Assembly: GCA_945873195.1 (NCBI GenBank)
Contig: CAMCDA010000024.1
Span: 1 to 34,111, forward strand
Reading direction: 5' to 3'
Source of the DNA: Asaia bogorensis
GTDB lineage: Bacteria; Pseudomonadota; Alphaproteobacteria; Acetobacterales; Acetobacteraceae
DNA length: 34,111 nucleotides
Part shown: one piece after another, positions 8,518 to 28,748 of the stretch
How the letters are laid out: every line of letters starts with the position of its first letter
Position numbering within the stretch: the first letter of the stretch is position 1
The notes under the pieces: model-generated
The model's input: the letters and a program-made list of their open reading frames with translations, nothing else
Database searches by the model: none
Told to the model about the DNA's origin: nothing
Program-made: the position numbers and the translations under genes

Positions 8518-9135
8518 ATGATCGCGCAGCTGACTGGCCGGATCGAGGCCTTGGCCGACGGCACCTGCATCGTCGATGTCAACGGCGTGGGGTATCTGGT
8601 GCATGCTTCCTCCCGCACGCTGTCGGCGTTGCCGCAGCCGCCCGCCCCGGCGAAGGTGCTGGTCGAAACCCATGTGCGGGAGGACGCGATCCTGCTGTAC
8701 GGCTTCGCCGATTCCGCCGAACGCGACTGGTTCCGCCTGCTGACAACCGTCCAGGGTGTCGGTGGCAAGGTCGCGCTGTCCCTGCTGTCGGCCCTGTCGC
8801 CCCGCGACCTGGTGGCCGCCATCGCCGCGGGCGACAAGACCAGCCTGACCCGCGCCGCCGGCGTCGGCGCCCGCCTCGCCGTGCGCCTGGTCACCGAGTT
8901 GCGCGACAAGGTCGAAGCGATGCCATCCTCGGGCGGGGTAGGGATGCCGGTGACCACCGCGCCGGCCGGCGGCGTGCGGGACGACGCGGTCTCCGCCCTG
9001 GTCAATCTTGGCTACCGCCGGCCGGAGGCACAGGCCGCCACCACACGGGCTGCCGACCGGCTGGGAGACGGGGTCACACTCGACGCCCTGATCCGGGAAG
9101 CGTTGCGTGAGATCGCGCAGAGGCTGGTGGGCTGA
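8518..9135 (+). CDS. ruvA: Holliday junction branch migration protein RuvA
   Basis: 205-residue RuvA, the usual length. It binds Holliday junctions as a tetramer and loads the RuvB motor during recombinational repair. Domains seen: the N-terminal OB fold starting [12 protein letters not shown] and including [11 protein letters not shown]; two helix-hairpin-helix motifs in the middle ([17 protein letters not shown] and [16 protein letters not shown]); a linker; and the C-terminal RuvB-contact domain ([20 protein letters not shown]). The frame is open upstream, but MIAQL is the family's normal N-terminus and fixes the start at 8518. Its stop overlaps the ruvB ATG by one base. ruvC, commonly next to it in proteobacteria, is replaced here by lutB on the other strand. 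Confidence 0.97.
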
Positions 9136-10181
9136 TGGCCGAGGCTCCGGAAGACCGCCCTGTTTCCTCGGCGCGCCAGATGGAAGATGCGGCCGAGGCA
9201 TCGCTGCGACCGCAGACCCTGGCGGAGTTCACAGGCCAGAAGGCCAGCCGGGAGAACCTGGCGATCTTCATCCAGGCCGCGCGCGGCCGGGGGGAGGCGC
9301 TTGATCATGTGCTGCTGCACGGCCCGCCCGGGCTTGGGAAGACGACGCTCGCCCAGATCGTCGCCCGCGAACTCGGTGTTGGGTTTCGCGCGACGTCCGG
9401 CCCGGTGATCGCCCGTGCCGGCGACCTGGCGGCGATCCTGACCAATCTCCAGCCGCGTGATGTCCTGTTCATCGACGAAATCCACCGCCTTCAGCCGGCC
9501 ATCGAGGAAGTGCTGTATCCGGCGATGGAGGACTTCCAGCTCGATTTGATCATCGGGGAGGGGCCGGCCGCGCGCAGTGTGCGGATCGACCTGCCGCCCT
9601 TCACCCTGGTCGGCGCCACCACGCGCGCCGGGCTGCTGGCCACGCCGCTGCGTGACCGATTCGGCATTCCGCTGCGGCTGGTCTTCTACACGCCCGAGGA
9701 ACTGCGCCAGATCGTCACCCGCGGTGCCCGTTTGCTTGGGATCACGCTGACCGACGATGGGGCGGAGGAAATCGCCCGCCGCTCACGCGGCACTCCCCGC
9801 ATCGCCGGCCGCCTGCTGCGCCGGGTGCGGGACTTCGCCGCCGTCGCCGGGGATGCCACCGTTGATCGCAAGATCGCCGATGCCGCGCTGACCCGGTTGG
9901 AGGTCGATCGCCTGGGGCTGGACGCGATGGACCGCCGCTATCTGCGGCGCATCGCCGACCACCATGGCGGCGGGCCGGTGGGCGTGGAAACCCTGGCCGC
10001 CGCCTTGGCGGAGGCGCGGGATACGCTGGAAGACGTGGTGGAACCCTATCTGATCCAGGAGGGCCTGATCCTGCGCACCAGCCGCGGCCGCATGATGGGC
10101 GACCCGGGCTGGCGGCATCTGGGGCTGAAGGCGCCCACCCGCGCCTCCCCCCAGTTGGACCTGCTGCCGGAGGATGAATAG
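9135..10181 (+). CDS. ruvB: Holliday junction branch migration ATPase RuvB
   Basis: 348-residue AAA+ ATPase that forms hexamer rings on either side of the RuvA-bound junction and pumps DNA. Seen: the N-terminal '[12 protein letters not shown]' segment, Walker A GPPGLGKT (63-70), Walker B with DEIH (114-117), sensor 1 in [10 protein letters not shown], the arginine-finger region PLRDRFG, sensor 2 in [15 protein letters not shown], and a C-terminal winged-helix part ending GWRHLGL. It is translationally coupled to ruvA (TGATG). Its stop codon is 3 bases from the stop of the convergent membrane-fusion gene, so no separate terminator fits between them. Confidence 0.98.
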
Positions 10182-10184
10182 CCC

Positions 10185-11453
10185 CTACAACTCCCGTCCC
10201 GCCGTCCGGAGACTCTCCCGCAACGGCGCGATCAGGTAGTCGAGCGCGGTGCGGGGCGCGATCGGCACGACCACGTCCACGGGCATCCCTGGCCCCAGGC
10301 GGGCGAGCAATCGCCCGCTCTCCTGGTCCGCCACGAGGGCGACCTCGGCCCGGAAATAGGTCCGGCCGGATCGGCTGTCGGTGATCCGGTCCGCCGAGAG
10401 CACCCGGATTTCCCCCTGGATCGGGGCGGTCTCCCGCGGGTTGAAGCCCAGCGCGATGACCGAGGCGGCTTGGCCGACGCGCAGATGCTCGATGTCCTCC
10501 GGGCGGATTTCCGCCTCGGCGATGATCGTGCGGGTGCGTGGGACGATATCCATCATCGCCCTGCCCGAATCGACCACGCCTCCATGGGTGAAGATCGCCA
10601 GATTGACGACCTCTCCGGCGATCGGCGCTCGGATTTCGAGGCGCGCCAGGATGTCCCGGTCGGCGGCCAGGCGCGGGATCACGTCGTGGATCCGCATCTG
10701 CGCCTCCCGCATGTCACGCGTCGCCTCGGCGTGGCTGGATTCCCGCAGCCGCAGCTTCTCGGCGTCCAGTTCGATGGCCAGGGCACCCAGGCGCATGACC
10801 TCGGTGGACAATTGCCCGACCTGGCCGCGGAGGGACTCGGCGGCGCGGGAGATTTCGAGCAGCCGGTTCTTCGACGCGAGCCCGGATCGTTCCAGCCGGG
10901 AGACGGAGCGCCATTCCTCCTCGGCGAAGCCCAACTGGCGGATGGTGGACTCGAGCTGGATGCGCACGCCGTTGATCTGCTGGCGGCTCTGCTCGATCCG
11001 CTGGTCAAGGATCTGGATCTGCCGGGACAGCAGGTCGCGCCGGCTGGTGAACATCAGCCGCTCCCTCCCCTTGACGACCGCGGCGACGGGGTCGTCGTCG
11101 TCCAGGGCCGAAGGGAATGTGATATCGGCTGCTTCCGCCAGTTCCGCCAGGCTGCGCGCGACCAAAGCGCGGTCGGCCAGCAGTTGCGCGTGATGGACCG
11201 TGTAGGACGCGCGCGCCTGGGTGTCGTCGAGGCGCACCAGAAGCTGGCCTTCCTCCACGATCGTGCCGTCGCGCACCAGCAGTTCGGCGACGATGCCGCC
11301 TTCCCGGTGCTGGATGGTCTTGCGGTTGCCATGCACGGCCAGGGCGCCGGTACCGACCACGGCCCCATCCAGCGGCGCGAGCGCCGCCCAGGAACCGAGG
11401 CCGCCGAAGAAGGCCAGGATCGTGATCAACCCGACGCGGATTGCGTTTCTCAT
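10185..11453 (-). CDS. HlyD-family membrane fusion protein of a type I secretion system
   Basis: 422-residue periplasmic adaptor of the HlyD/PrtE family. It links an inner-membrane ABC transporter to an outer-membrane TolC-like channel in type I secretion. Seen: a short cytoplasmic N-terminus, one membrane helix (residues about 7-27), a barrel-sandwich part with the conserved VVGTGALAVHGNRKTIQHREGGIV region (split: VVGTGALAVHGNRK, TIQHREGGIV), a long alpha-helical hairpin rich in Gln, Arg and Glu (about 90-270), and the second half of the lipoyl-like domain (IRAPIAGEVVNLAIFTHGGVV). GGAGG lies 6 bases before the ATG, and the ATG overlaps the stop of the giant upstream gene (ATGA). That overlap is the normal arrangement of a prtD-prtE pair. 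No TolC-like gene is present in the window. Confidence 0.93.
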   Translation of the reverse strand: MRNAIRVGLITILAFFGGLGSWAALAPLDGAVVGTGALAVHGNRKTIQHREGGIVAELLVRDGTIVEEGQLLVRLDDTQARASYTVHHAQLLADRALVARSLAELAEAADITFPSALDDDDPVAAVVKGRERLMFTSRRDLLSRQIQILDQRIEQSRQQINGVRIQLESTIRQLGFAEEEWRSVSRLERSGLASKNRLLEISRAAESLRGQVGQLSTEVMRLGALAIELDAEKLRLRESSHAEATRDMREAQMRIHDVIPRLAADRDILARLEIRAPIAGEVVNLAIFTHGGVVDSGRAMMDIVPRTRTIIAEAEIRPEDIEHLRVGQAASVIALGFNPRETAPIQGEIRVLSADRITDSRSGRTYFRAEVALVADQESGRLLARLGPGMPVDVVVPIAPRTALDYLIAPLRESLRTAGREL

Positions 11454-12541
11454 ACCCGTCCTCCCGCCACCACGGCCGGTGTCTGCTGTGCCATGAACTC
11501 GGTCGCACGCTGCACGCCGGTCATCGCGCCATCCCGCATGGTGGCGACGTAGTCGGAGATGCGAACCAGACCCGCCCGATGCGTGACCATCACGACCGTC
11601 CGCTTACGCTTCTTCAGGTCCAGGACGCATTCGGTCAGCGCGGCCTCTCCATCGGAATCGAGGTTGGCGTTCGGCTCATCCATCACCACCACCGCGGGAT
11701 CGCCCAGCAGGGCTCGGGCGAGGGCGATGCGCTGCTTCTGGCCGCCGGACAGGCTGGCGGCTGTTTCATCCAGGACGGTGCCGTAGCCATCGGGCAGATG
11801 GGTGATCATCTCATGCGCGCGGGCGACCTTGGCGGCGGCGACCACGTCCTCATCCGTCGCGTCGCCGAAGCGGGCGATGTTGTCGCGGATCGTACCGGGG
11901 AACAGCGCGACGTCCTGTGGCAGGTAGCCGACAGCCCTGCCGAGCTGCGTGGGCTCCCAGGTGGCGAGGTCCGCGCCGTCGAGGCGGGCGGTCCCCACGT
12001 CGGGCCGGATCGCGCCGACCAGCAGGCGGGCGATGGTTGATTTGCCGGCGGCGCTGGGCCCGACGATGGTCAACACCGCGCCCGCCTGGATCTGCACCGC
12101 CACGCCGCGCACGACGGGCCGGTTCAGCCCGGGCGGCGTCCAGGACACCGTTTCCAGATGCACGTCTCCGGCCGGGGCCGGCAGCGTGACGGTCTTGAGG
12201 TCCCGTTCGCCCTCGACCAGCAGTGCGCGGATGCGTCCGAAGGAGTCCTTGGCCGCCAGCGTCGGCCGCCAGGCGCCGATCATTGCCTCGATCGGGGCAA
12301 GCATGCGGCCCAGCAGCAGGGAGCCGGCGAAGATCGCGCCGGCCGAGATGGCATCATGGATCGCCAGCCAGGCGCCGACGCCCAGGATGGCGGACTGGAA
12401 GAACAGCCGCAGGCCCTTGCCGATTGCCCCCAACACGACCGAGCGGTGGCTGGCGGCGTTCTGGGCGGCGAGCATTTCGCCGCGCAATTGCCGCCAGCGG
12501 GCCGTCAGGCCAGCGCCCAGACCCATGGTCCTGGCGCAGTC
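11450..12541 (-). other. Truncated type I secretion permease/ATPase moiety of the giant fusion
   Basis: The last ~364 residues of the giant frame match the C-terminal two-thirds of PrtD/AprD-type exporters, which are usually about 550-590 residues long. Seen: the 'A..MGL...L..RW..L' helix that follows the fourth membrane segment, two membrane helices (LFFQSAILGVGAWLAI and AGAIFAGSLLLGRMLAPIEA), then a complete ATPase domain (Walker A, Q-loop in GYLPQDVALFPGTI, LSGGQ, Walker B, H-loop). The part holding helices 1-4 and the start codon is not in the window. I therefore treat this as the 3' remainder of a separate transporter gene joined to its substrate gene. Confidence 0.8.
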
Positions 12542-15500
12542 GACGTGGCGGGTCGGATCGTAGACCAGGATCGGATTGGCATGATCGGTGGGCGCCGTCG
12601 TGGTCGTGTAGAGGTCGATGAATTGCCCAGTATCGACCTGGATATCGCCGTCGGCCGCGAAAGTGGCGCTCGCGCTGGTGGCTTCATCCGTCAGCACGGT
12701 GCGTTCCAGCCCGATGATCGGGGCCGATTCACCGGATGCGGCCACGCCGCCGACGATCGTCGTGACAACGACACCGTTGATGATGTCGTTGACATCCGCG
12801 GTGACGTCGAAGTTGTCGTCCGCGCCGTTGACCGTCGTCAGCACCGTCCCGTCGGACGCATAGACCTTGAGCGTGGCGCCATCGACACCGTTGCCGGTGA
12901 CATGAACGGTCCCGGAGGTGGAGCTGACGGCGACCCCCGTTGCCAGGGCCGACACCGCATGACCGTTCAGCACGATGGTTTCATCGGCAAGCGCGGCATA
13001 CTGGGTCGGCGTCAGCGCCAGGGCGCTCTGCGTCAGGGTGATCGTCTTGCCGTTGTCGTCGAACCCATCATCGAAGTTGGCGATCGCCGTCAGGGTGGCA
13101 GCGTTCGCGTAGTCGTTCGACGCCAGATAGATCGTGTTGGCGCCCAGCGTGAAGTTCGGCAGGACGGACAGGCGGTAGGTGGTCAGCGCCGACGCGGTCT
13201 CATCCCCGGCGAGCGTCACGGTGTTTGCCAGGTTGAGGGCCGCGAGGTTCGCCGGGTTCAGCAGGTAGGACGCGCCGTCCTGGATGCTCAGGTCGTCGGT
13301 GTCGGTGAACCCGGGCAGGGCTACCAGGCGCGCGGCGGTGCGGGCATTCAGGGTTTCGGCGCCGGACAGTTCCACATGGATGCTCGCCTTGTAGGCGCTG
13401 GCGTTGATCAGCGGCGACAGGACACCATCCAGCAGGCTGTCCGACGTGTCGGAGACGGTCAGCGTGTGGTTGAGCACGAACTTCGCCTCGGCGAGCAGCG
13501 CCTCGGCATCCAGCGCCGCCACCGTGGCGTTGCCCGTGAGCTGCCAAATATCGGCGAAGGATTTGCCGTTGTCGTAGGAGGTGTTCAGCAGGTTGGACGG
13601 GGTGTCGGAGATCGTCAGCGTATAGGCGCCGCGGTCGAAGTGAATCGTATCCTTCAGGGTGAACAACGACGTGGCGTTGGCGGCCGTGGTCGACTGGTTG
13701 GAGGAGAAGGTGGTCGCGTTCATCGACGACAGGGATGCGGTGTTAGACCCGTTCACCAGCGTCGAGACGCTGTCGGCGACCACCAGGTTGAAGTCGTCAT
13801 GCACGCTGGTGTTCGCGGTCCAACCGCCCGACCCCGTCAGGGTCTGGATGTTGGTGAACGTATCGGTCACCGCCGCGATGTTGTTTCCGAAGAAGACACT
13901 CGCGGCGAGGATGCCCGGGTTGTTCCCCACCTTCAGCAGGTCCAGGAAGGCCGCAGCCTGGTTCACGGACACCGTGGAGCTGTCGGTGACCGTGATGCTG
14001 CCGCCCAGCAGTTTGCTGTTGTTCGTCAGGGTGGCGATGTGGGCGAAGGTATCGGTGATATCGGGCGTCACGACCAGGCGGGCGTTGTTGCTCAGGTTGG
14101 ACACGGTCGCCACGTCGCCCGCCAACTGGATGGTGTGGCCATTCAGTTGGAACGCGTTGCCCAGCGCGCCGATCTTGTTGGCGTCCGCCACGCTCATGCC
14201 CGTTGCATTCGCCGACAGTGACAGCGTGAAGTTGCCGGCGCTGAAGCCTGTCAGCCCGCCCAGGATGGCGGCGTTGGCGGCCGTCACGCTGGCACTGGCC
14301 GACAAGGACCAGGTGGTCGGGGTGATGCTCGGGCTGCCGCCCAGATGGCCCGGAGCATTGGCCGCGAGGGTGGCCGCCGTGTCCCGCACTGTCAGGTTGA
14401 CACCACCGCCCGCGGTCGCGCCCAGGTTCAGCAGGTGGGTGTAGACGGCGTCCGTCACCGTGCCTGACGCACTCACGACCACGCTGCTGATCAGCGCGTC
14501 GTTGGCGTCAAGGGTTGCGTAGTTCGCCTCGATGTTCGCGGTGGTGCCGGAGACGATCAGCGTATTGGTTGTCGCGTTCGGGTTGTCCTTGCTGAAGTTG
14601 GTGATTGAAAGCAGTGTCGCCGCGGTCGCCGGCGACACGGTGGCCGAACCGGCGACCGTCTTGAGATGGACGGCGTCGATGGACGGGTCGTTCACCGCGG
14701 CGAGGTAGCCGTCGATGGTATCGATCAGGTTCGCCGCCGAGTCCCAGACCTTCAGCGTATGGCCGTTCTTGTCCAGGTTGGTCAGGCCCTGCAGGGCCAG
14801 CGCATCGGCCGCCGTGATGACCGAGGCCTCGGACAGTTCGATATCCAGGCTGTTTATGAACGCGAGCCCGTCGCTGTCCGCCGCCGCGATGGCCGCGGCG
14901 ATCTGCGCGCCACTGTCCGATACAGTCAGGTTCGATGCCGCGAGGTTGGGGATTTCGAGCAGGCCCGCGATCTCACTGGCGTTGATGACGTTGTCGGTCA
15001 GGGTGGCCTGGGAGAACTTGGACCCGATCGTGTTCAGCGTCGTCAGGTTGGACAAGATGTTCGCCGCCGTATCGGTGACGTAGACCTCGCTGACGGTCGC
15101 GTCGGCCGCCAAGGTCGCCGCGATCGCCGCGATCTGCGCCGCCGTGCCGATGACCCGCACCGCCCCGGTGGTGGTGATCGCATCGATCACCGCCGCGACG
15201 GAGGTGTAGGTCACCGCCGTAGTGGTGATGGTCGGGGTGTTGGCCACTCCGTCCGACAGCGCGATGACGAGCGTATGGGCGTTGTCCGTGATCGTGGTCT
15301 TCAGGCTGTTGAGGCTGGCGCTGACATTGGCCGACGAGTCGGCGACCCGGACCGTGTCAGCGAGGCTGAGATTGCCCTGCGACAAGGCCAGGATGTTGGC
15401 CGCCGTATCCTGGACCGCGATGGTGCGGCCGCCGGCGGCAAAGGCGGCGATCGCGTCGAGCGCCGTCAGTTGCGCCGCCGTCACCGTGATGTTGGCCGAC

Positions 15501-18500
15501 GGGTTCACCGTGGTTGCCGCCGCGATACCCGCCGCGTTGGCATTGTCCAGGATGTTGGCGACGGCATCGGAGATCGTGATCGCCTGGGCCGCCACGTTGA
15601 AGTCCTCGATCGCCACCAGGTCGGTCGCGAGGGCGGCCGTCGTGGTCGTCGCCCCGCTGAGCTCGACCGTGGTCGCCAGGTCGATGCCGGCGGCGTTGGC
15701 CTGGTTCAGCAGGTTGGCGATCGTGTCGGCGATGGCCATCGTCTGGCCGCCACCCAGGGTCGCGTCCAGGATGCCGGACAGGGTGGTTGCCTCGGCCGCC
15801 GTCAGCCCGGTCGGGTTGTTCGACATGGTGACCGCGAGCGCGGCGGTCAGCATCGCGGGAACCGCGCCCTGCGCCGTCAGCAGGGCCGCCGCGGTGCCGG
15901 TGATGGTCAGCGCGCTCTCGTCAAAGGTCGCGATGCCAACCAGGCTGTTGAAGATGGTCGTCGCGTTGGCGACGGTCATCGAGCCCTCGGTGGGTTTGAC
16001 CGAGGTGACGAAGGCGGCGTGCACACCGAGATCACCCGTGCCGCCGAAGTCACCCAGGATGTTGGCCGTCGTGTCGAGAATCGTGACCTCGGCCGGCGTG
16101 ACATTCAGGGCGAACAGCGTCACGAGATCAGCGATTTCCGCATTGCTGACGGCAAGCGTGGGGCCCGTCATCAGGTCGAAGGCGGAACCATTGCCATCGT
16201 TCACGTCCTGGGCCAGCACTTGCGCGACGGTCAGGGTGATCGTGCCCGCCGGACTGACGGTGATCGCGGTGATGTCGCCAAGATTGCCCAGGATGTCGGA
16301 GGACCCGCCGAGCGCCAGGTCAGCCTGGACGTGGGCCGCCGTGTCATTGATCGAGATGGATGCCGGCGCGACCCCAAGGGCCAGGATCGTATCGATATCG
16401 GCAACCGCCAATCCGGTGACGATCAGCGAGCCGCCCGTCACTTTCGACAGCACCGATCCGACGCCGTCGTTCACGCCGGCGGTCAATACCTGGGCCGAGG
16501 TCAGCGTGATCGCCCCGGCATTGCTGTTGGTGATCGCCGTGATGTCGCCGTTGTTCGCCAGCAGGTCGGAGGCCCCACCCAGCGCCAGGTCAGCCTGGAT
16601 ATGCGCCGCCGTGTCGCTGACGGTGATCGATGCCGGGGCTACGCCCAGGCCGAGGATCGTCTCGACATCGGCAACGGTCACACTCGTGACGATCAGGGAT
16701 CCTCCGGTCACCTTCGCCAGCACGGACCCCGCGCCGTCGTTGACCCCCGCCGCCTGCACCTGGGCGGAGGTCAGGGTGATGGCCCCCGCATTGCTGTTGG
16801 TGATGGCCGACAGCATCGCGTTGTTGGCCAGCAGGTCGGAGGACCCGCCGAAAGCCAGATCAGTGGCAATGTTCGCCGCTGTGTCGCTGACGGTGGCGCT
16901 GTCCGGAACCTCCGGGAATGCCAGCACAGTGTCGATCTCGGCCACGGTGATGCCGGTGACACGCAGCGTGCCCCCGCTAAGCAGCGCCGCCGCTGATCCA
17001 GCGCCGTCGTTCACGCCGGCCACCTGCATCTGCGCCAGTGTCAGGGACACAACCCCGGCGTTGCTGACCGTGATCCCGGTGATCGTGCCCAGGGCCGCCA
17101 GGATGTCGGAGGAGCCACCCAGCGCCAGGGCGGCCTGGATGTGGGCCGCCGTGTCGCTGATCGTGATCGAGGCCGGGGAGACGTCGAGCGCCAGGATCGT
17201 ATCGATATCCGCAACCGCCACACCGGTGACGATCAGCGAGCCGCCCGTCACTTTCGACAGCACCGATCCGACGCCGTCGTTCACGCCGGCAGCCAATACC
17301 TGGGCCGATGTCAGCGTGATCGCCCCGGTATTGCTGTTGGTGATCGCGGTGATGTCCGCCAGGTTCGTCAGCAGGTTGGAAGACGCCCCGAGCGCCAGAT
17401 CGCTGGCGATGTGTGCCGCCGTGTCGCTGACCGTGATCGACGCCGGGGCAACGCCCAGGCCGAGGATCGTCTCGACATCGACTACCGTGACACCGGTGAC
17501 GATCAACGTTCCGCCCGTCACCTTGGACAGCACCGATCCGGCGCCGTCGTTGACCCCCGCCGCCTGAACCTGGGCGGAGGTCAGGGTGATGGCTCCGGCA
17601 TTGCTGTTGGTGATGGCGAACAGCATCGCGTTGTTGGCCAGCAGGTCGGAGGACCCGCCCAAAGCCAGATCAGTGGCAATGTGCGCCCCTGTGTCGCTGA
17701 CGGTGGCGCTGTCCGGAACCTCCGGGAAGGCCAGGACGGTGTCGATCTCGGCCACCGTGACGCCGGTGACACGCAGCGTGCCGCCGCTCAGCAGCGCCGC
17801 GGCCGACCCAGCGCCGTCGTTCACGCCGGCCACCTGCATCTGGGCCAGCGTCAGGGACACAACCCCCGCGTTGCTGACCACGATCCCGGTGATCGTGCCG
17901 AGAGCCGCCAGGATGTCGGAGGAGCCGCCGAGCGTCAGGTCGGCCTGGATGTTCGCCGCCGTGTCGCTGATCGTGATCGTGGCCGGGGAGACGTCGAGCG
18001 CCAGGATCGTGTCGATATCGGCAACCGCCACACCGGTGACGATCAGAGACCCTCCGGTCACCTGCGCCATGACCGATCCGGCGCCATCGTTCACGCCCGC
18101 CACCAGCACCTGGGCCGATGTCAACGTGATCGCGCCGGCATTGCTGTTGGTGATCGCGGTGATGTCCGTCAGGTTCGTCAGCAGGTCGGAAGATGCTCCC
18201 AGGGCCAGGTCGGTGGCGATATGCGCCGCCGTGTCACTGACGGTGATCGACGCCGGGGCAACGCCCAGGCCGAGGATCGTTTCGATGTCGGCTACCGTGA
18301 CACCGGTGACGATCAGGGAGCCTCCGGTCACCTTCGCCAGCACCGAGCCGGCACCGTCGTTGACCCCCGCGGCCTGAACCTGGGCCGAGGTCAGGGTGAT
18401 GGCTCCGGCATTGCTGTTGGCGATGGCGAAGATCATTGCGTTGTTTGCCAGCAGGTCGGAGGACCCACCCAAAGCCAGATCAGTGGCAATGTTCGCCGCT

Positions 18501-21500
18501 GTGTCGCTGACGGTGGCGCTGTCCGGAACCTCCGGGAACGCCAGGACTGTGTCGATCTGTGCCACGGTGACACCGGTGGCACGCAGCGTGCCGCCGCTCA
18601 GCAGCGCCGCGGCTGATCCAGCCCCATCGTTCACACCCGCCGCTTGCATCTGCGCCAGTGTCAGGGACACAACCCCGGCGTTGCTGACCACCACGCTGGT
18701 GATGTCGGCAAGGTTCGCCAGAATGTCGGAGGAGCCGCCCAGCGCCAGGTCGGCCTGGATATGCGCCGCCGTATCGCTGATCGTAATTGACGCCGGGGCT
18801 ACGCCCAGGCCGAGGACCGTCTCGATATCGGCAATTGCTACACCGGTGACAACCAGAGATCCCCCTGTCACCTTCGACATGGCGGATCCGGCGCCGTCAT
18901 TCACGCCCGCGGCCTGCACCTGGGCGGATGTCAGCGTGATCGCCCCGGCATCGCTGTTGGCGATCGCGGTGATGTCGGCATTGTTCGCCAGCAACTCCGA
19001 GGACCCACCCAGTGCCAGGTCGGTCGCGATATGCGCCGCGGTGTCGCTGATCGTGATGGATGCCGGTTCCACTGGCAGGCCGAGGATCGTGTCGATATCG
19101 GCCACCGCAACCCCGGTGATGATCAAGGACCCGCCCGTCACCTTCGACAGTACGGAGCCCGCGCCATCATTGACCCCCGCCGCCTGTACCTGGGCGGATG
19201 TGAGTGCGATCGCGCCCGCATTGGTGTTGGTGATCGCGAAGATCATCGCGGCGTTCGCCAGCAGGTCGGACGACCCACCCAAGGCCAGGTCGGTCGCGAT
19301 ATTCGCCGCCGTATCGCTGACGGTGGCGCTGTCCGGCACCTCCGGGAATGCCAGCACCGTGTCGATGTCCGCCACGGTGATCCCGGTGACACGCAAAGTG
19401 CCACCGCTGAGCAGCGCCGCCGCCGATCCGGCGCCATCGTTGACCCCCACCGCCTGCATCCGAGCCAGCGTCAGGGACACGATCCCGGCGTCACTGACCG
19501 CCAAATTGGTGATGTCGGCCAGGTTCCCCAGGATATCCGAGGACCCACCCAGTTCCAGGTCGGCCTGGATATGCGCCGCCGTGTCGCTGATCGTGATCGA
19601 CGCCGGCGCGACCCCCAGCCCCAGGATCGTCTCGATATCGGCAACGGCCACGCCGATGACGATCAGCGAGCCTCCGGTCACCTTCGACAGCACCGACCCG
19701 GCGCCGTCATTCACCCCAGCCTCCAGTACCTGGGCGGATGTCAGCGTGATCGCGCCGGCATTGCCGTTGGTGATCTCGGTGATGTCGGCGTTGTTCGCCA
19801 GCAGCTCAGACGAGCCACCCAGGGCCAGATCGGTGGCGATGCTGGCGGCCGTGTCGCTGACCGTGATCGAGGCCGGTGCCACTGGCAGGGCCAGGATCGT
19901 GTCGATGTCGGCGATGGCAACGCCGGTAACGACCAGGTCGCCTCCGGTCACCTTGGACAACACGGACCCCGCGCCATCATTCACCCCGGCCAGCCGCACC
20001 TGCACCGAGGTCAGGAGGATCGTCGCCGACGTGCTGTTCGTGATCGCGGTGATGTCGCCAATGTTCGACAGCAGGTTGGAAGATCCACCCAGTCCGAGGT
20101 CCACCGAAATCGCCGCCGCCGTATCGCTGACCGTGATCGACGCCGGGGCCACGGGCAGGGCCAGGAGCGTTTCGATGTCCGCCACGGAGACGCCGGTCAC
20201 GACCAGCGAGCCTCCGGACACCAGGGACATGACCGAGCCAGCTCCGTCATTGACATGCGCGGTGGTAACCTGAGCCGACGTCAGGGTGATCACGCCGTTA
20301 TCGGTGTTCAGGACCCCGCTCAGCAGCGCCCGGTTGACCAGCAGGCTGGACGAACCGCCCAGCGCCAGATCCGTCTGGATATGGGCCGCGGTGTCCTCCA
20401 CCGCGATCTCATCCGGGGTCACCGGCAGTGCCGCGGCGCTCGCGACATCGGCCACCGTCGCGTCCAGCACGATCAGCGTCCCGCCGCTCAGCAGCGAGGC
20501 CGCCGATCCGGCACCGTCATTGATGTCGGTGAACTGCCACTCGGCCAGCGTCATCGCGATCGTGCCGTTGTCGCTGACGGTGATCTGCGTGATCTCCGCC
20601 AGGTTGCCCAGGATCAGCGATCCCGCGCCGGCCTGGAAATCAGCCTCGATATGCGCCGCCGTGTCGCTGACGGTGATCGAGGCCGGCGGGACGCCCAGCG
20701 CGAGCATGGCCGGGATATCGGCGACGGCCACGCCGGTGACGACCAGCGAGCCTCCCGTCACCTTGGACAAGGCGGACCCCGCTCCATCGTTCACCCCGGC
20801 CGCCACCACCTGCGCTGCGGTCAGCGTGATCGCCCCGGCATCGTTGTTGGTGACGCCCGAGATCAGCGTCAGGTGCTCCAGGATGTTCGACGTGCCGGCG
20901 ACGGCCAGGTCGGCCTGGATCGTGGCCGCGGTCGCGGTGACGGCGATCGAGGCCGGCGCCACCGGCAGAGCCGCGATCGTGTCGATATCGGCGACCGCGA
21001 CGGCGGTAACGACCAGAGAACCTCCCGTCACCTTGGACAGCGCCGAACCGGCCCCGTCATTCACGCTCGGCACGACCACCTGCGCGGCGGTCAGGCTGAT
21101 CGCCCCGGCATCGCTGTTAGTGATGGCCGAGATGTCGGCCAGGTTGTCGAGGATGTCGGACGATGCGCCCAGCGCCAGGTCGGCGGCGATGTTCGCGGCG
21201 GTGTCGGACACGGTGAAGCTGTCGGCCGCGACGGGCAGGGCGGCGATGGCGTCGATATGCGCCACGTCCACGCCGATCACGACGATCGTGCCGTTGGTCA
21301 AATGCGACAGCGCCGAACCGGGTCCGTCATTTACGTTGGTCGCCAGGACCTGGGCCTGCGTCAGGGTGATCGGATCGGAGTCGCTGACGGTCAGCGCCGC
21401 CAGCGGCCCGCGGTTTGCCACCAGGTCGGACGTATTGCCGGCCGCGATGTCGGCGATGATATGCGCCGCCGTGTCGGTGACCGAGACGTCGGACGGCGCC

Positions 21501-24500
21501 GGCACCAGGGCCATCAGCGCATCCAGTTCGGCGACGGTGGCTCCGGTCACGACCAGGGTCACGCCCGTCGTCAGGGCCAGCGCGTCATCGACGTCGATCA
21601 CCAGCGCCTGGGTCGCGGTCAGGGTGACCGTGCCGGACGGCGTGACCGTGATCTCCTCGATTTCGGCCAGGTTGGCCAAAATGAGCGAGGCGTTGCCGGC
21701 GGTCAGGTCCGCCTGGACATGGGCGGCCGTATCGGCGACCACGATGCTCGTCGGGGCCACGCCCAGCGCCATCAGGTCATCGATCTGATCGACCGTGGCA
21801 TCGGTGACGGCCAGCGTCACGCCGGTCATCTTGCCAAGGGCGGAACCGCTGCCGTCGTTGAAGCCGGCGGTGAGGGCCTGGGCCGCCGTCAGGGTGATCG
21901 TGCCGGCCGGGCTGACGGTGATCCCGCTGACGACCGCCAGGTTGGCGCGGATCGTGGAGCCACTGTCGGTGATGTTGGCCTGCAGGTGCGCCGCGGTGTC
22001 GACGATCGCGATGCTGTCGGGCGCGACGGGCAGGGCCAGGATATCCTCGATATCCGCCTCGGCCACCGAGGTGACCGCGAAGTCGCCGCCGGTGACCTTG
22101 GACATGACCGATCCCGCGCCGTCATCGACGTTCGCCGCGGTGGCGCGGGTGGCGGTCAGGCTGACCACGCCGTTGTCGGACACCGCGATCCCCTCGATCA
22201 GCGCGCGATGCGTCACCAAGTCCGACCCGACGGTGGCAAGGTCGGCAGAGATCGCGCTCGCGACGTCGGAGACCAGGATGCTGTCGGGCACGACGCCCAT
22301 GGCGGCCAGGTCGGCCACGTCATCGACGGTCGCGCCGATCACGGTGACCGTCCCGCCAGTCATGATATCCAGCGCGGAGCCGTCGCCATCATTGACGCCG
22401 GCGGCCTCGATCTGCGCCACGGTCAGTTCGATGTCCCCGGTATCGCTGACGATGATCTGGCTGATGAACTGCAACACACCCAGCATGTAGGACGATTGGC
22501 CATTGGCGAGGTCGGCCTCGATATTGGCGGCCGTATCGTTGACATGCAGCGCGAAGCTGGACCCGATCAGGCCGAGCACATCGCGGGCGGAACTGAGCTG
22601 GGCGACCGAGACGGTGAGGGTCGGCGTTCCTCCGTCACTGAGCACGATCGTGGTGACCACCCCGCCGTCTTCCGCGAAGGAGACGAGCGCATCGAGCCGG
22701 GTATTCACGTTGGCGGCGCTGTCCAGGATGGTCGCGTGGGCGCCGAGGCTGTCCAGGATTCCGCCATTGGTAACGATCTGCTGGGCGGTGGAGTTGGGTG
22801 CGGTGATGGCCGAAATCCGGCTCTGCCCCAGCAGGGTGGTCAGGCCGCTGGACTGGGCCGCGATAGCGGCGGGTGTATCGGTGACGGACACCTGGACGCC
22901 CTGGCCCAGATGGTCCTCGATCGGCAGCAGCCCGACCGCGATGGCGGCGGTCAGATCGGTGGTGCCGGAGATCGAAACGACCCCCAGCAGGTCGCCCAGG
23001 TCATCAAGGTCCGAGGCAACGGCCACCAGGGCGGCGGCCGTGTCGGTCACGTTCAGTTGTGTGTTGCCGGTGATGTTCGCCAGGACGGGCAGAAGGTCCG
23101 CGGCCACCTCGGCCGTGACCGGCACGGAGTCCGTCAGGGTGATGGACAGGCGGCCCCCGAGGGTCTGGATCGGGTTCTGACCGCCGGCGACCGCGCCGAT
23201 CGCCGCCGCGGAGTCGGTGACCCGCACGGCGCTCAGATTGTTGCCCAGGGCCACCAGGTTGGTGATGTGGGCGGCCACATCGGCGGCGTCATCGGCCACC
23301 TCCAGCGGGTCACCGGTCAGAAGGTCCGCCAGCTCATGCAGGCCGGCCGCGTTGGCGGCGCTCAGCGCGCCGGAGTTCGTCAGGGTGACCGAGGCCAGGT
23401 CGGTGACGGTCAGCAGCCCGGTGCTCTGCGTTCCAATCGCCTGGGCGGCGTCGACCACATGGACCGGCACGCCGAGCGTGTTGAGCGCGGAGGCCGCGCC
23501 GGCAATGGCGCCCGCGGTGTCGGACACCTCCAGGTCCCGGTCGCCGGTAGAGAAATGCGCGCCCAGGCCGGCGAAGACGACCGCCACGGCGGCGGCGACC
23601 GTCGCGTTGGCGGAGAGTTCGTAGTCCGGGGCAAGGCTGCCCCAGTCGTGTTCGGCGGCGTCCTCCAGCGCGCTGGCGGTATCCAGGATCGTGACATGGT
23701 CGGCCAGGGCCAGGCCTTCCGCGTTATCCTCGTCGGACAGATGGGCGAAGGTATCGACGACGTTCAACTGGTGGCCGGACGCGAAGGTCAGCATCGCGGC
23801 GGTGTCGAGCGGCACCAGCGCGTCGGCCTGCGCGACCGAGATGTCGGCCGACTGGTTGATCCGGGCGCCGGTCGCGACCGCCAGGATGGCATCGACATTG
23901 GCTGCCATCGCCGCGGGGCCATCGACGACAACCAGCAGCATGTCAGCGGCGTCGAAGTCGGGCGTGTCGGCCAGGATCGCCGCGGTCGCCGCGTCGATCG
24001 TCGAGTCACCGGAGGGCGTCACCGACGCCGCCTGGACCAGCAGCGGATTGCTTGTGTTCGCGGCGATGTTGCCGATGGAGTCGACCACTTCGTACGACGT
24101 CGCCACGTCGGCCCAGTCTTCCGTTTCGGCGGCGGCCAGGTTGGCGATGGTATCGCGCACGACGATCGTCGCGCCGGTGTTGGTGAAGGCGGGCAGTGCG
24201 GCGAGGTCCGCCGCCTCAGCCGCTGTCAGGACCACGCTGGCGCTGGCGGGCAGACGCTGGGCGGTGGAGATATCACGCGCGGCCTGCGACAGGTCGATCA
24301 GGTTCTCGACGCTGTCCTGGATGGTCAGGGCCACGCCGTCACTCAAGGCGAGGTCCGGCAGGTCGGCCAGCTCCTCGGCCATGGCGGCCGAGACGGTGGC
24401 GCTGGTGCCAAGCGTCTGATGCGCCGCCAGTTCAAGTTCCTGCGTGCCCAGGTCGGCCAGGTTGATCGCCGTATCGACGACCGTCAGGGTGTTGTCATCC

Positions 24501-27500
24501 AGGTCGAACTTCACGCCCAGGCGGGCGAGGCCGCGCAGTTCGACCGCGTCGATCGTTTCGGAGTCCACCAACTGGAGGACGGTCGCCATCAGCAGCGTCT
24601 CGCCGGACAGGTCGAGCAGGGCTTCGACGTCGTCCCGCACGGTCAGCATGCGGCCGCCGGTCCAGAACCGGTCGTCGGCGAACAGCGCCGTGGCCGAGGA
24701 GGCGGTTACGACCGCGTTGCCCGACAGGACCAGCATGTCGGCGATCGCCAGGCCGGCGCTGTTGGCCTCGGCGAGCAGTCCCTCGGCGGTGTCGGCGATG
24801 GTCAGCAGGTTGTCGCCAAGATCGACGGATCGGCCGGCCAGGATGGTTGCCTGTGCGGCGGTCAGCGTCGCGTCGCCGGCCATTTCATACGCGGTCGGCG
24901 CGGAGTGCGCATCCGCGGTGAAGTTCGCGATGCGTCGGCCGGAGTCGCGCAGGATCAGGTCGTTGCCGTCCAGGTCGAATGGCGCGCCACTCAGATTGTA
25001 TTGCGGCAGGGACCGCAGCGCCATGAGCTGGGCAACGGTCGCGACCGTATCTTCCGACAGCGAAATGGGTGTCGCCTGCAACAGGGGGTTGTTGCTGGCC
25101 AAGGTGGTGGACCCCAGGTCCAGCAGGTTCGCCAGCGTGTCGCTGATGGTCAGCGCGGCGTTGGCGTTGACTTGGAAGGTGGACGTGCCGACCAGGGCCA
25201 CCGCATCGTCGACCGACAGGGTGGTGGCGGTGCTGAGCTGGATGTGATCCGCCAGCGCCAGACCGGCATCAAAGCCGGCGAAGGCCAGGGCGTCGGCTGT
25301 GTCGCTGATGGTGACGACCGCGCTGCCCTTGGTGAAGTCATCGATCGCGACCAGGCGCATGGCCTGGGCCGCGGTGATCGTCACCGGTCCGCTGGACAGG
25401 CTGACGACATCGGCGATCTCAAGCGCCCGGGCGTTTGCCGGGTCGAGCAGCTCCGCCGCGGAATCCCGCAGTGTCAGCGTATGGGTCCCGGAAGAGAAGC
25501 GGCTGCCGAGGGTCGCGAGGTCGGAGGCGTTGGCGGCGGTGACGACGGCGTCCTCGGACAAGGTGGCGGTGCCGGCGAGCAGCAGGCCCGCCCAGTTGTC
25601 GGGATCGGCCTCGCTGTTCGTGCGGAACAGCATCTCCTCGGCTGTATCCACCACGGCGATGCGGTCGGGGCGGCCGTTGAAGCTGGGCAGGTCCGTCAGC
25701 ATCGTGGCCTGTTCGGCCGTCAGGCTGGCGGTACCCTGGAGCAGGGTGATCCCGATCAGCGAGGTATCACCATCCAGCGTCAGCAGGTTCGTGGCGGTGT
25801 CGCTGACGATCAGCATCCGGCCGTTCAGACTGAAGTTCGGCAGGTCGCGCACGGCCTCGAACTGGGCCACGCTGATCAGGCTGTTGCCGGCCAACTGGAT
25901 CGCCGTGGCCATCGCTGCGGTGCCCTGGTCCAGCGCCGCCAGGCGCGCGGCGCCGTCGCTAATGATCAGGTCGTGGGTGCCGACCGAGAAATGCGCGATC
26001 GCGTGCAGGGACGTGGCAACCGTGGCGATGACGGTGCTGTCCGCCGACAGGGACACGGCGCCGGCCAGCGCGAGGCCAGCGCCCGCGCCCGGGGCCAGCA
26101 GGGCGGCCACGGTGTCGACCACCGACAGGCCCGGCCCAACATCGAGGTTCGGCAGCATGGCCAGGGTCGCGGCCTGGGACGCCGACATCACCCAGGGCTG
26201 GGCCTGGTCGGCCAGTTCAAAGCCGGTGATCTCTCCGGCCAGGGCGGTCCAGGCGCGGGTGACGCTCAGCGCATCGGGGGTGTCGCGCACGACGAGGTCG
26301 TGCCCGCCATTGCCGAAGCGCGCGCCGAGGCCCGCGAGGATGGCGGCTTCCGCGGACGTGACGACCGCGTCGGCGGACAGGACGACCTGGTCCGCAACCA
26401 TCATGACGGCCCAGGCATCGGGTTCGGAGGCGCCTTCCGACATGTGCAGCAGCGCGGAAGCGGTGTCCTGGATCGTCAGGCTCACCGGCCCGGATTCGAA
26501 ATGCGTGAACCGGGCGAGTGTCGCCGCGTCGGCGGCCGAAGCGGTGACCGCGGCCGAGAGCATGACCGGGCCCATCCAGGCGTTCACCACCTGCAAGGCG
26601 GAGGACCCGGCCAGGGTAAGCAGGTCGCTCAGCGTCGCGGCGACGGCGATCGCGTGATCCTGCGTGTCGAATACGGGACCCAGGGCGGCCAGGCGGCCCG
26701 CCTGCTGGGCATCGATCAGGGCATCATCCGCCAGGACGATGGCGGTGGCGGCCGACAGGCCGGCGGCGTTGGCCTGATCGGCGAGGGCGGCGGCCTGGTC
26801 GCTGACGACCAGGTCCACGCCCTGGGCCAGCCCGAAGCCGGGCAGCGCGGACAGCGCCAGGGCCTCGGCCGCCGACACGGTGGCGTCGAAGCCCAGGCGG
26901 GCGGTCGCGCCTTCCTCGAATGCCAGCGTGTCATCCAGCAGCTGTGCCACGGTGGCGGTAAAGACGCCGGACTCCACGGTGATGGCCAGGAAGCCGCGGT
27001 CGAAGATCCCGTCCGCGACGGCGGACAGGGCCGACCCGGTGTCGGCGACCGACAGCGCGAACAGGGCCGGCTCGAAGTCGGGCGTGCCGGCCAAGGTGGC
27101 GGCGGATTCCGCGTTCACGGTGCCGCCATTGTCCGTCGGCGTGACCGAGATCGGGCCGGTTTCGCCCAGTTCCGCCAGCATCACCCGCGCCGCGACGAGG
27201 TTGACGAGGGTGTCGGAGATGCGGAGGGCGGGGTGGTCCTCGGACCCCACCAGCGTCATCGTCACGTGCTCGGGCACCAGGGCGGCCAGCGCCTCGATCT
27301 GCGCGATGGTATAGGTGCCATTGTCGGCCAGAAGGCGGATGGCGGTCACGCCGGACGGAATCTGGGTGGCGGCGACCAGGTGGGCGGCGGTGTCTTCCAG
27401 GATGATGGCGGTGGCCAGCGCCTTCAGGTTGCCCGCAAGGGCGGCCAGCGTCGCCAGGGTGTCGGCAATCGTCAGGTTCGTGCCGGTGGCGGTGTCGGGA

Positions 27501-28507
27501 CCGAAGCGGCTTGCGAGCTGCACGACCTGCTGCGTCGTCAGGGTGGCGGGGGCGGACAGGATCGCGTTCTGGGCGAACGACGCGTCACCCGCGGATACGG
27601 CCAGCAGGTTGGCGGCGGTATCCTCGACCGTTATCTCGCGACCGGCCGCCATCGAGAAGTTCGGCAGGTCGGCCAGGACGGCGAGTTCGGCCGCCGTGAC
27701 GGTTACGCTGTCCGTGGCTTGGGTGCGGAGCGCGGGGACGGAGACAGCCAGGGTGGCGATGGTCTCCGCGCCGTTGATCAGGGCCTCGGTGGTATCGGTC
27801 ACGCGGATCACGACCCGGGGAAGGGAGCCGATGGCCGGCAATTCCGTGACGACACCCTGCGCCAGAAGGGCCGAGAGTGTGTCGGAGACGGTCAGGGTGG
27901 CATTGGTGCCGACCGAGAAATTATGCAGCGCCACCACGTCCAGGGCGGTGTCGACATTGACCGTGGAATCCACCGAGACCTTGTAGGCCTGCAGGGCGGC
28001 GCGCTTCTGGCCGTTGGTGATGGCGAGCAGGTTGGCGGCGGTATCGGCCAGGGTGATGATCGCGCCGGGGAAGACGGAGAACGACGGCATGGTCGTGAAC
28101 GCGATCATGCCCGCCAAGGAGACATCGGCGCTGGTGGACATCACGACGCTGTTCGCGCCGGTGATCACCGTCTGGGTCGCCGCGGCCAGGATATTGGCGG
28201 CGGTGTCGAAGACCGCCTTCGCGTTCGCCAGCGTGAGACCGGTGGCGTTCAGCGGATTGGCCAGGTCGGCAACCGAGCTCCGGACCGTCAGGGTGAAGCC
28301 ATTCTTGGAAAACAGCCCGCCCAGGTTGGCGAGCAGCCTGGCATCGCCCGGTGACGTGGCCCCGTTCGCGTTCATGTTGAACGCGGTCACCCGGGGCATC
28401 AGGCTGGTGGTCAGGCTGCCACGCGCGATGTTGGTCGGCGTATCGACAATGGTGATCCCCGTCGCGGTGGGCGATGCCAAAGCCTGATCGATCGTCATGA
28501 TTGCCAT
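11450..28507 (-). CDS. Giant cysteine-free repeat protein fused in frame to the C-terminal part of a type I secretion ABC transporter
   Basis: One open frame of 5,685 residues. The ATG at 28507 is preferred (AGGGA 10 bases upstream); an in-frame ATG at 28552 would add 15 residues. There is no signal peptide. Residues 1 to about 1630 are diverged repeats of roughly 45-60 residues, each ending in a strand with 'DTAANLL'. About 1630-1990 have a related but different spacing. About 1988-4142 are 24 units of 90 residues. About 4142-5190 are again diverged. A bacterial Ig-like stretch follows at about 5200-5280, and then 'ILVYDPTRH', which resembles the start of the C-terminal motif of type I secreted proteins. 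At V5322-D5323-C5324 the sequence changes abruptly to a PrtD-type ABC transporter: two membrane helices, Walker A GPSAAGKST (5483-5491), LSGGQ (5586-5590), Walker B MDE (Asp5610) and VTHR. The first ~200 residues of the transporter are absent. I see no cysteine before 5324. The repeat part is inferred to be a secreted surface adhesin; the fusion product's function is unknown. Confidence 0.85.
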   Translation of the reverse strand: MAIMTIDQALASPTATGITIVDTPTNIARGSLTTSLMPRVTAFNMNANGATSPGDARLLANLGGLFSKNGFTLTVRSSVADLANPLNATGLTLANAKAVFDTAANILAAATQTVITGANSVVMSTSADVSLAGMIAFTTMPSFSVFPGAIITLADTAANLLAITNGQKRAALQAYKVSVDSTVNVDTALDVVALHNFSVGTNATLTVSDTLSALLAQGVVTELPAIGSLPRVVIRVTDTTEALINGAETIATLAVSVPALRTQATDSVTVTAAELAVLADLPNFSMAAGREITVEDTAANLLAVSAGDASFAQNAILSAPATLTTQQVVQLASRFGPDTATGTNLTIADTLATLAALAGNLKALATAIILEDTAAHLVAATQIPSGVTAIRLLADNGTYTIAQIEALAALVPEHVTMTLVGSEDHPALRISDTLVNLVAARVMLAELGETGPISVTPTDNGGTVNAESAATLAGTPDFEPALFALSVADTGSALSAVADGIFDRGFLAITVESGVFTATVAQLLDDTLAFEEGATARLGFDATVSAAEALALSALPGFGLAQGVDLVVSDQAAALADQANAAGLSAATAIVLADDALIDAQQAGRLAALGPVFDTQDHAIAVAATLSDLLTLAGSSALQVVNAWMGPVMLSAAVTASAADAATLARFTHFESGPVSLTIQDTASALLHMSEGASEPDAWAVMMVADQVVLSADAVVTSAEAAILAGLGARFGNGGHDLVVRDTPDALSVTRAWTALAGEITGFELADQAQPWVMSASQAATLAMLPNLDVGPGLSVVDTVAALLAPGAGAGLALAGAVSLSADSTVIATVATSLHAIAHFSVGTHDLIISDGAARLAALDQGTAAMATAIQLAGNSLISVAQFEAVRDLPNFSLNGRMLIVSDTATNLLTLDGDTSLIGITLLQGTASLTAEQATMLTDLPSFNGRPDRIAVVDTAEEMLFRTNSEADPDNWAGLLLAGTATLSEDAVVTAANASDLATLGSRFSSGTHTLTLRDSAAELLDPANARALEIADVVSLSSGPVTITAAQAMRLVAIDDFTKGSAVVTISDTADALAFAGFDAGLALADHIQLSTATTLSVDDAVALVGTSTFQVNANAALTISDTLANLLDLGSTTLASNNPLLQATPISLSEDTVATVAQLMALRSLPQYNLSGAPFDLDGNDLILRDSGRRIANFTADAHSAPTAYEMAGDATLTAAQATILAGRSVDLGDNLLTIADTAEGLLAEANSAGLAIADMLVLSGNAVVTASSATALFADDRFWTGGRMLTVRDDVEALLDLSGETLLMATVLQLVDSETIDAVELRGLARLGVKFDLDDNTLTVVDTAINLADLGTQELELAAHQTLGTSATVSAAMAEELADLPDLALSDGVALTIQDSVENLIDLSQAARDISTAQRLPASASVVLTAAEAADLAALPAFTNTGATIVVRDTIANLAAAETEDWADVATSYEVVDSIGNIAANTSNPLLVQAASVTPSGDSTIDAATAAILADTPDFDAADMLLVVVDGPAAMAANVDAILAVATGARINQSADISVAQADALVPLDTAAMLTFASGHQLNVVDTFAHLSDEDNAEGLALADHVTILDTASALEDAAEHDWGSLAPDYELSANATVAAAVAVVFAGLGAHFSTGDRDLEVSDTAGAIAGAASALNTLGVPVHVVDAAQAIGTQSTGLLTVTDLASVTLTNSGALSAANAAGLHELADLLTGDPLEVADDAADVAAHITNLVALGNNLSAVRVTDSAAAIGAVAGGQNPIQTLGGRLSITLTDSVPVTAEVAADLLPVLANITGNTQLNVTDTAAALVAVASDLDDLGDLLGVVSISGTTDLTAAIAVGLLPIEDHLGQGVQVSVTDTPAAIAAQSSGLTTLLGQSRISAITAPNSTAQQIVTNGGILDSLGAHATILDSAANVNTRLDALVSFAEDGGVVTTIVLSDGGTPTLTVSVAQLSSARDVLGLIGSSFALHVNDTAANIEADLANGQSSYMLGVLQFISQIIVSDTGDIELTVAQIEAAGVNDGDGSALDIMTGGTVTVIGATVDDVADLAAMGVVPDSILVSDVASAISADLATVGSDLVTHRALIEGIAVSDNGVVSLTATRATAANVDDGAGSVMSKVTGGDFAVTSVAEADIEDILALPVAPDSIAIVDTAAHLQANITDSGSTIRANLAVVSGITVSPAGTITLTAAQALTAGFNDGSGSALGKMTGVTLAVTDATVDQIDDLMALGVAPTSIVVADTAAHVQADLTAGNASLILANLAEIEEITVTPSGTVTLTATQALVIDVDDALALTTGVTLVVTGATVAELDALMALVPAPSDVSVTDTAAHIIADIAAGNTSDLVANRGPLAALTVSDSDPITLTQAQVLATNVNDGPGSALSHLTNGTIVVIGVDVAHIDAIAALPVAADSFTVSDTAANIAADLALGASSDILDNLADISAITNSDAGAISLTAAQVVVPSVNDGAGSALSKVTGGSLVVTAVAVADIDTIAALPVAPASIAVTATAATIQADLAVAGTSNILEHLTLISGVTNNDAGAITLTAAQVVAAGVNDGAGSALSKVTGGSLVVTGVAVADIPAMLALGVPPASITVSDTAAHIEADFQAGAGSLILGNLAEITQITVSDNGTIAMTLAEWQFTDINDGAGSAASLLSGGTLIVLDATVADVASAAALPVTPDEIAVEDTAAHIQTDLALGGSSSLLVNRALLSGVLNTDNGVITLTSAQVTTAHVNDGAGSVMSLVSGGSLVVTGVSVADIETLLALPVAPASITVSDTAAAISVDLGLGGSSNLLSNIGDITAITNSTSATILLTSVQVRLAGVNDGAGSVLSKVTGGDLVVTGVAIADIDTILALPVAPASITVSDTAASIATDLALGGSSELLANNADITEITNGNAGAITLTSAQVLEAGVNDGAGSVLSKVTGGSLIVIGVAVADIETILGLGVAPASITISDTAAHIQADLELGGSSDILGNLADITNLAVSDAGIVSLTLARMQAVGVNDGAGSAAALLSGGTLRVTGITVADIDTVLAFPEVPDSATVSDTAANIATDLALGGSSDLLANAAMIFAITNTNAGAIALTSAQVQAAGVNDGAGSVLSKVTGGSLIITGVAVADIDTILGLPVEPASITISDTAAHIATDLALGGSSELLANNADITAIANSDAGAITLTSAQVQAAGVNDGAGSAMSKVTGGSLVVTGVAIADIETVLGLGVAPASITISDTAAHIQADLALGGSSDILANLADITSVVVSNAGVVSLTLAQMQAAGVNDGAGSAAALLSGGTLRATGVTVAQIDTVLAFPEVPDSATVSDTAANIATDLALGGSSDLLANNAMIFAIANSNAGAITLTSAQVQAAGVNDGAGSVLAKVTGGSLIVTGVTVADIETILGLGVAPASITVSDTAAHIATDLALGASSDLLTNLTDITAITNSNAGAITLTSAQVLVAGVNDGAGSVMAQVTGGSLIVTGVAVADIDTILALDVSPATITISDTAANIQADLTLGGSSDILAALGTITGIVVSNAGVVSLTLAQMQVAGVNDGAGSAAALLSGGTLRVTGVTVAEIDTVLAFPEVPDSATVSDTGAHIATDLALGGSSDLLANNAMLFAITNSNAGAITLTSAQVQAAGVNDGAGSVLSKVTGGTLIVTGVTVVDVETILGLGVAPASITVSDTAAHIASDLALGASSNLLTNLADITAITNSNTGAITLTSAQVLAAGVNDGVGSVLSKVTGGSLIVTGVAVADIDTILALDVSPASITISDTAAHIQAALALGGSSDILAALGTITGITVSNAGVVSLTLAQMQVAGVNDGAGSAAALLSGGTLRVTGITVAEIDTVLAFPEVPDSATVSDTAANIATDLAFGGSSDLLANNAMLSAITNSNAGAITLTSAQVQAAGVNDGAGSVLAKVTGGSLIVTSVTVADVETILGLGVAPASITVSDTAAHIQADLALGGASDLLANNGDITAITNSNAGAITLTSAQVLTAGVNDGVGSVLSKVTGGSLIVTGLAVADIDTILALGVAPASISINDTAAHVQADLALGGSSDILGNLGDITAITVSPAGTITLTVAQVLAQDVNDGNGSAFDLMTGPTLAVSNAEIADLVTLFALNVTPAEVTILDTTANILGDFGGTGDLGVHAAFVTSVKPTEGSMTVANATTIFNSLVGIATFDESALTITGTAAALLTAQGAVPAMLTAALAVTMSNNPTGLTAAEATTLSGILDATLGGGQTMAIADTIANLLNQANAAGIDLATTVELSGATTTTAALATDLVAIEDFNVAAQAITISDAVANILDNANAAGIAAATTVNPSANITVTAAQLTALDAIAAFAAGGRTIAVQDTAANILALSQGNLSLADTVRVADSSANVSASLNSLKTTITDNAHTLVIALSDGVANTPTITTTAVTYTSVAAVIDAITTTGAVRVIGTAAQIAAIAATLAADATVSEVYVTDTAANILSNLTTLNTIGSKFSQATLTDNVINASEIAGLLEIPNLAASNLTVSDSGAQIAAAIAAADSDGLAFINSLDIELSEASVITAADALALQGLTNLDKNGHTLKVWDSAANLIDTIDGYLAAVNDPSIDAVHLKTVAGSATVSPATAATLLSITNFSKDNPNATTNTLIVSGTTANIEANYATLDANDALISSVVVSASGTVTDAVYTHLLNLGATAGGGVNLTVRDTAATLAANAPGHLGGSPSITPTTWSLSASASVTAANAAILGGLTGFSAGNFTLSLSANATGMSVADANKIGALGNAFQLNGHTIQLAGDVATVSNLSNNARLVVTPDITDTFAHIATLTNNSKLLGGSITVTDSSTVSVNQAAAFLDLLKVGNNPGILAASVFFGNNIAAVTDTFTNIQTLTGSGGWTANTSVHDDFNLVVADSVSTLVNGSNTASLSSMNATTFSSNQSTTAANATSLFTLKDTIHFDRGAYTLTISDTPSNLLNTSYDNGKSFADIWQLTGNATVAALDAEALLAEAKFVLNHTLTVSDTSDSLLDGVLSPLINASAYKASIHVELSGAETLNARTAARLVALPGFTDTDDLSIQDGASYLLNPANLAALNLANTVTLAGDETASALTTYRLSVLPNFTLGANTIYLASNDYANAATLTAIANFDDGFDDNGKTITLTQSALALTPTQYAALADETIVLNGHAVSALATGVAVSSTSGTVHVTGNGVDGATLKVYASDGTVLTTVNGADDNFDVTADVNDIINGVVVTTIVGGVAASGESAPIIGLERTVLTDEATSASATFAADGDIQVDTGQFIDLYTTTTAPTDHANPILVYDPTRHVDCARTMGLGAGLTARWRQLRGEMLAAQNAASHRSVVLGAIGKGLRLFFQSAILGVGAWLAIHDAISAGAIFAGSLLLGRMLAPIEAMIGAWRPTLAAKDSFGRIRALLVEGERDLKTVTLPAPAGDVHLETVSWTPPGLNRPVVRGVAVQIQAGAVLTIVGPSAAGKSTIARLLVGAIRPDVGTARLDGADLATWEPTQLGRAVGYLPQDVALFPGTIRDNIARFGDATDEDVVAAAKVARAHEMITHLPDGYGTVLDETAASLSGGQKQRIALARALLGDPAVVVMDEPNANLDSDGEAALTECVLDLKKRKRTVVMVTHRAGLVRISDYVATMRDGAMTGVQRATEFMAQQTPAVVAGGRV
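16081..22546 (-). repeat. Tandem array of 24 coding repeats, 270 bp (90 residues) each
   Basis: The unit reads roughly ITVSDTAAHIQADLALGGSS, DILANLADITAITNSNAG, AITLTSAQVQAAGVNDGAGS, VLSKVTGGSLIVTGVAVAD, IDTILALGVAPAS. The marker VNDGAGS recurs exactly every 270 bases over long stretches (for example ends at 16470, 16740, 17010, 17280, 17550, 17820). Units 1-7 (22546 to about 20700) are most diverged. One unit near 21588 lacks 12 bases at the NDG loop. Borders are approximate to about one strand of the repeat. Confidence 0.9.
16351..19590 (-). repeat. Higher-order repeat: four copies of a three-unit, 810-bp block
   Basis: Inside the 270-bp array three unit types alternate. Type C is marked by SAAALLSGGTLRVTG and FPEVPDSATVSDTAANIATD. 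It recurs at exactly 810-base spacing (VNDG marker at about 17010, 17820, 18630 and 19440). Comparing 16801-16990 with 17611-17800 by eye gives 12 differences in 190 bases. This points to recent duplication of blocks of three units. Confidence 0.85.
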
Positions 28508-28748
28508 TTTGCCGTCTTCCCTAGCCTGGTCACACAAGGTCGGCGGCTGCATGTCGACTCGCTCTGGGTCAGCATGGTCCGCCGGATGGTCCTGACGATG
28601 CCACTCAGGGTTGAATCAAAGGTTAAATTCAATCGTATGGATTGCGGACTTCCACAGGCTCGATGGTGAACAAAACTGGAATTCGTCAACGAATGGATAA
28701 CCGGACGCCGGCTGGCAGGGCGGGCGCCGGCCTGATACACGGCCCCGC
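28508..28748. promoter_or_regulatory. Divergent promoter region, giant fusion gene / ABC exporter
   Basis: 241 bases between divergent genes; the middle is AT-richer than the surroundings. It holds an inverted repeat TTGAAT-N10-ATTCAA at 28611-28632, and two similar copies GGTTGAATC and GGTTAAATTC side by side. This could be an operator or part of overlapping promoters. AGGGA (28518-28522, minus strand) is the ribosome site of the giant gene. I cannot place a confident -35/-10 pair. Confidence 0.4.

Follow-up and report, generated by a model that had tools for sequence, protein, structure and literature searches.

In an environmental bacterium, one open reading frame joins a giant repeat-protein gene to the distal part of the gene for a PrtD-type ABC exporter, and the join is most likely a loss-of-function deletion rather than a new kind of protein. 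The window analyzed here is a stretch of 34,111 bp (contig C24, bases 1–34111) from a draft genome of 5.45 Mb that has 400 contigs and is 97.76% complete. The fused ORF occupies 11450..28552 on the minus strand and has 5700 codons with zero internal stops. A first-pass annotation had described a repeat protein joined in frame to part of its exporter, and the uninterrupted 5700-aa frame confirms this as a genuine feature of the assembly. The true start may be the methionine at residue 16 (about 28507), based on comparison with the orthologue in a same-genus genome (G022), where the repeat gene has 6020 codons. In the translated ORF, residue 5336 (window 12545) ends the string ILVYDPTRH and is followed without a gap by VDCARTMGLGAG. 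A recent inactivating deletion is the likely explanation. Two direct repeats, short and imperfect, probably flanked the deleted stretch of about 737 bp, which would have included the spacer together with the final codons of the giant substrate gene and the initial third of the exporter gene; the two remnants would have been left in a single frame by chance. The resulting protein would be missing the C-terminal end in which the type I export signal should lie, and the half exporter, without TM1–4, could not have formed a translocation channel.

The giant repeat protein part (12545..28552, minus strand) encodes ~5336 residues and is without the last 37–40 residues present in relatives. A tandem array of 270-bp units, in about 18 copies, lies within the gene at 16259..21283 (minus strand). 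No Pfam family scored above cut-off in the giant protein, encoded repeats included. Nonapeptide calcium-binding repeats (PF00353) had no match when the protein was scanned in two halves, and it is not an RTX protein by these repeats. The opposite strand of the gene contains a 3107-codon frame at 19031–28354 (plus strand), which is probably a by-product of high GC content and repeats. ARAGORN called a tRNA-Thr (cgt) at 15690–15779 (plus strand), antisense to the coding sequence; this call is probably false. An Rfam search returned zero matches at gathering scores.

The exporter remnant (11453..12544, minus strand) consists of the C-terminal 364 residues, with TM5–6 and the nucleotide-binding domain. 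These 364 aa match the PrtD model TIGR01842 (E value 2.2e-128, 429 bits) over positions 193–538 of 544. Since the match begins at model position 193 and its score lies below the cut-off of 510 bits, the exporter is N-truncated; with an incomplete membrane domain, the window copy falls short of full TIGR01842 membership. Judged by sequence similarity, it is a truncated descendant of a PrtD-type exporter. The intact orthologue in the closest relative found (MAG UBA6159) scores 589 bits over model positions 7–538 and aligns to Aquifex aeolicus PrtD (PDB 5l22) over residues 8–546. The window copy differs from exporters of this type in lacking model positions 1–192 (TM1–4) and in sitting behind a giant repeat protein. 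The remnant also matches PF00005 (E value 7e-30), and GPSAAGKS, LSGGQ, VVMDEP, and VTHR, which we take to be the Walker A, signature, Walker B, and H-loop motifs, are all found in its translation, as expected of a nucleotide-binding domain. The HlyD-type adaptor gene (10185..11453, minus strand) shares a 4 bp overlap with the fused ORF and is complete, covering positions 3–421 of 422 in TIGR01843.

The search for the exporter part covered 59 genomes, comprising its own, 32 from the same genus, and 26 others. Orthologues with 71%–96% identity and open frames of 567–603 residues were identified in 10 of the 32 same-genus genomes; identities in the remaining 22 were no higher than 44% among the matches listed. 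All 10 orthologous loci have a separate repeat gene that ends at its own stop, a complete exporter, and an HlyD gene next after it. The separate ABC gene of ~580 residues that the first-pass annotation proposed looking for between the repeat and HlyD genes is therefore present at every one of these loci. In nine, the earliest in-frame exporter start codon is 10–171 bases beyond the last base of the repeat-gene stop; in the tenth (G027), it is 7 bases before or 11 bases after, according to which start is taken. The reading frame of the exporter relative to that of the repeat gene varies among the 10 loci. A separate contig scan yielded 56 relatives, four of which (L002–L005) are at least 74% identical. 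L002 and the contig in G014 (UBA6159) are one and the same, and L003–L005 appear to be G022, G003, and G027, with identical frames, and were counted once. The repeat protein/exporter/HlyD operons of UBA6159 and the nine other genomes thus have the same gene order and repeat-protein tail as the window, but with a stop, a separate start, and a complete exporter at the point where the window is 737 bp short.

Alignment of the window to UBA6159 produced two colinear blocks, 12546–21807 (88.6% identity) and 6202–12553 (92.2% identity). The blocks overlap by 8 bases in the window, and their counterparts are 737 bp further apart in UBA6159. The junction was placed at 12545..12556 (minus strand); the short repeat leaves the precise position of the breakpoint ambiguous. 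The extra stretch in UBA6159 holds 40 repeat-gene codons with their stop, then 26 bp of spacer and 196 codons of the exporter (TM1–4); the number of lost repeat-gene codons is 37 when similar residues at the join are taken as kept and 40 otherwise. It had been proposed that both partners are cut and that the transporter is without membrane helices 1–4. Both points stand: compared with UBA6159, the repeat protein is short by 37–40 residues and the exporter by ~196, and four merged hydropathy peaks (residues 10–39, 46–72, 131–149, and 152–170) fall in the missing part. A further hydropathy group at 235–288 is kept in the remnant, where one peak within the nucleotide-binding domain is also over threshold.

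The breakpoint ends in UBA6159 are AGCGGCCAT and ACCCGCCAT, an imperfect direct repeat identical at 7/9 positions. A 7/9 match within 5 bases occurs at 1.6% of 4000 positions with the same spacing and in 1.7% of 20000 random pairs. A short imperfect repeat with this modest chance level suggests repeat-mediated deletion as the mechanism. In Escherichia coli, short direct repeats are described as sites of RecA-independent deletion (PMC5426353). The events described there resemble this one in the loss of a single stretch with a short repeat at either end; they differ in that the present repeat, of about 9 bp, is imperfect and that this deletion is reconstructed from comparison only. An in-frame join has a roughly 1-in-3 chance after such a deletion, so the open frame alone is unremarkable.

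A different account of the same junction is that the assembler took up a chimera or a deletion variant carried by a minority, and that the main population has two separate genes. The draft state of the genome, with its 400 contigs, and the separate genes in all 10 comparable relatives are consistent with this, as is the short shared sequence at the junction, which would also fit template-switching chimeras. Searched with a 729-bp query, however, the assembly contained only 43 bp of the missing stretch at 84% identity (contig C65), and on both sides of the junction the window otherwise keeps the order of UBA6159. This search gave no sign that the missing piece had been relocated within the genome. 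A repeat collapsed during assembly is not favored because the sequence shared by the breakpoints amounts to only about 9 bp, with 7 identical, and no contig was found to hold the missing piece; identity of this length and quality cannot collapse the usual k-mer graph. An artefact or minor allele is unlikely, though it is the main rival. A stop, spacer, and transporter start at the join had been named in advance as signs of an artefact; they are present in the relatives, but alone they cannot separate a true deletion from one. Among the three origins first considered for the fusion, deletion is supported by the separate genes at all 10 loci, assembly collapse is less likely, and a tethered protein is unsupported. 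We infer from the sequence comparison that the junction would be present in living cells.

The proposed deletion bears directly on export. Substrates of the HlyA type carry their signal in the last 50–60 residues and exit C-terminus first (PMC4648471), and by analogy with HlyA the last 37–40 residues, lost here, are expected to carry the type I export signal. In the lost tail, 15/40 columns are invariant among the 10 relatives, compared with 11/40 and 15/40 in the two preceding stretches. Conservation of the tail is no stronger than in the stretches before it and was rejected as a mark of an export signal. For A. aeolicus PrtD, one study (PMC8277102) describes a basic bowl formed by TM1, TM3, and TM6 near substrate entry. 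Because the presumably signal-bearing C-terminal end and TM1–4 are gone and an ATPase domain replaces the native C-terminus, the fusion product would most likely not be exported, and the operon would be null in the strain or population.

The age of the event was considered from the absence of stops. Between 1.1% and 1.3% of random substitutions yield a stop in the ORF, and 227–270 neutral substitutions (1.3%–1.6% of the ORF) give a 95% chance of at least one. Synonymous divergence (dS) from UBA6159 is 0.25–0.28 in the three stretches compared. Provided that no selection has acted since then, the deletion would be young, because there are zero stops in 5700 codons against this dS. The dN/dS ratio is lowest in the exporter remnant (0.073), followed by the adaptor (0.088) and the repeat-protein tail (0.156). 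Such ratios sum up constraint across the entire divergence and do not isolate the time after the event; the value for the remnant is expected from pre-deletion history and likewise if the fusion has been kept by selection. We infer that the mechanism would be repeat mediated, the age recent, and secretion lost.

The alternative of a selectively kept fusion, in which TM5–6 of the exporter remnant anchor the giant repeat protein in the inner membrane, could draw on this low dN/dS, on the single frame without a stop, and on the intact nucleotide-binding domain motifs. It is nevertheless highly improbable given that the fusion is seen in none of the 10 relatives and that four of six membrane helices and the substrate C-terminal end are missing. 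A wider survey of 289 genomes from the class, 144 of which have a TIGR01842 match at an E value of 1e-100 or better, also argues against it. Among the matches listed, only three frames exceed 1000 residues: the one in the window and those in G100 (1532) and G216 (1403). Upstream, the latter two run over the gene of an RTX protein (L090) and a glycosyltransferase-like ORF (L091), and the extra frame of L091 had no Pfam hit when scanned. Both were rejected as natural substrate-PrtD fusions, since each appears to be a frame that overlaps a different upstream gene by chance. Among the papers listed on such fusions, the titles and the starts of the abstracts showed no natural substrate-exporter fusion. 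That cells express and retain the fusion as a giant repeat protein anchored in the membrane, a natural substrate-exporter chimera with its own ATPase domain, staying in the cell or blocking the type I route, is scarcely credible.

A second type I cluster occurs in the same genome on contig C65 (L087, 3–6870). It has an RTX-like repeat protein, whose start near the contig end is uncertain, a full-length PrtD exporter (666 bits), and an HlyD-type adaptor. Because this cluster is retained, type I secretion genes are not wholly lost from the genome. For annotation, the 5700-residue protein should not enter databases as an example of a novel domain architecture. Should the deletion prove to be fixed, the species would be without export of a giant protein kept by its relatives and would be a natural knock-out for the role of that protein.
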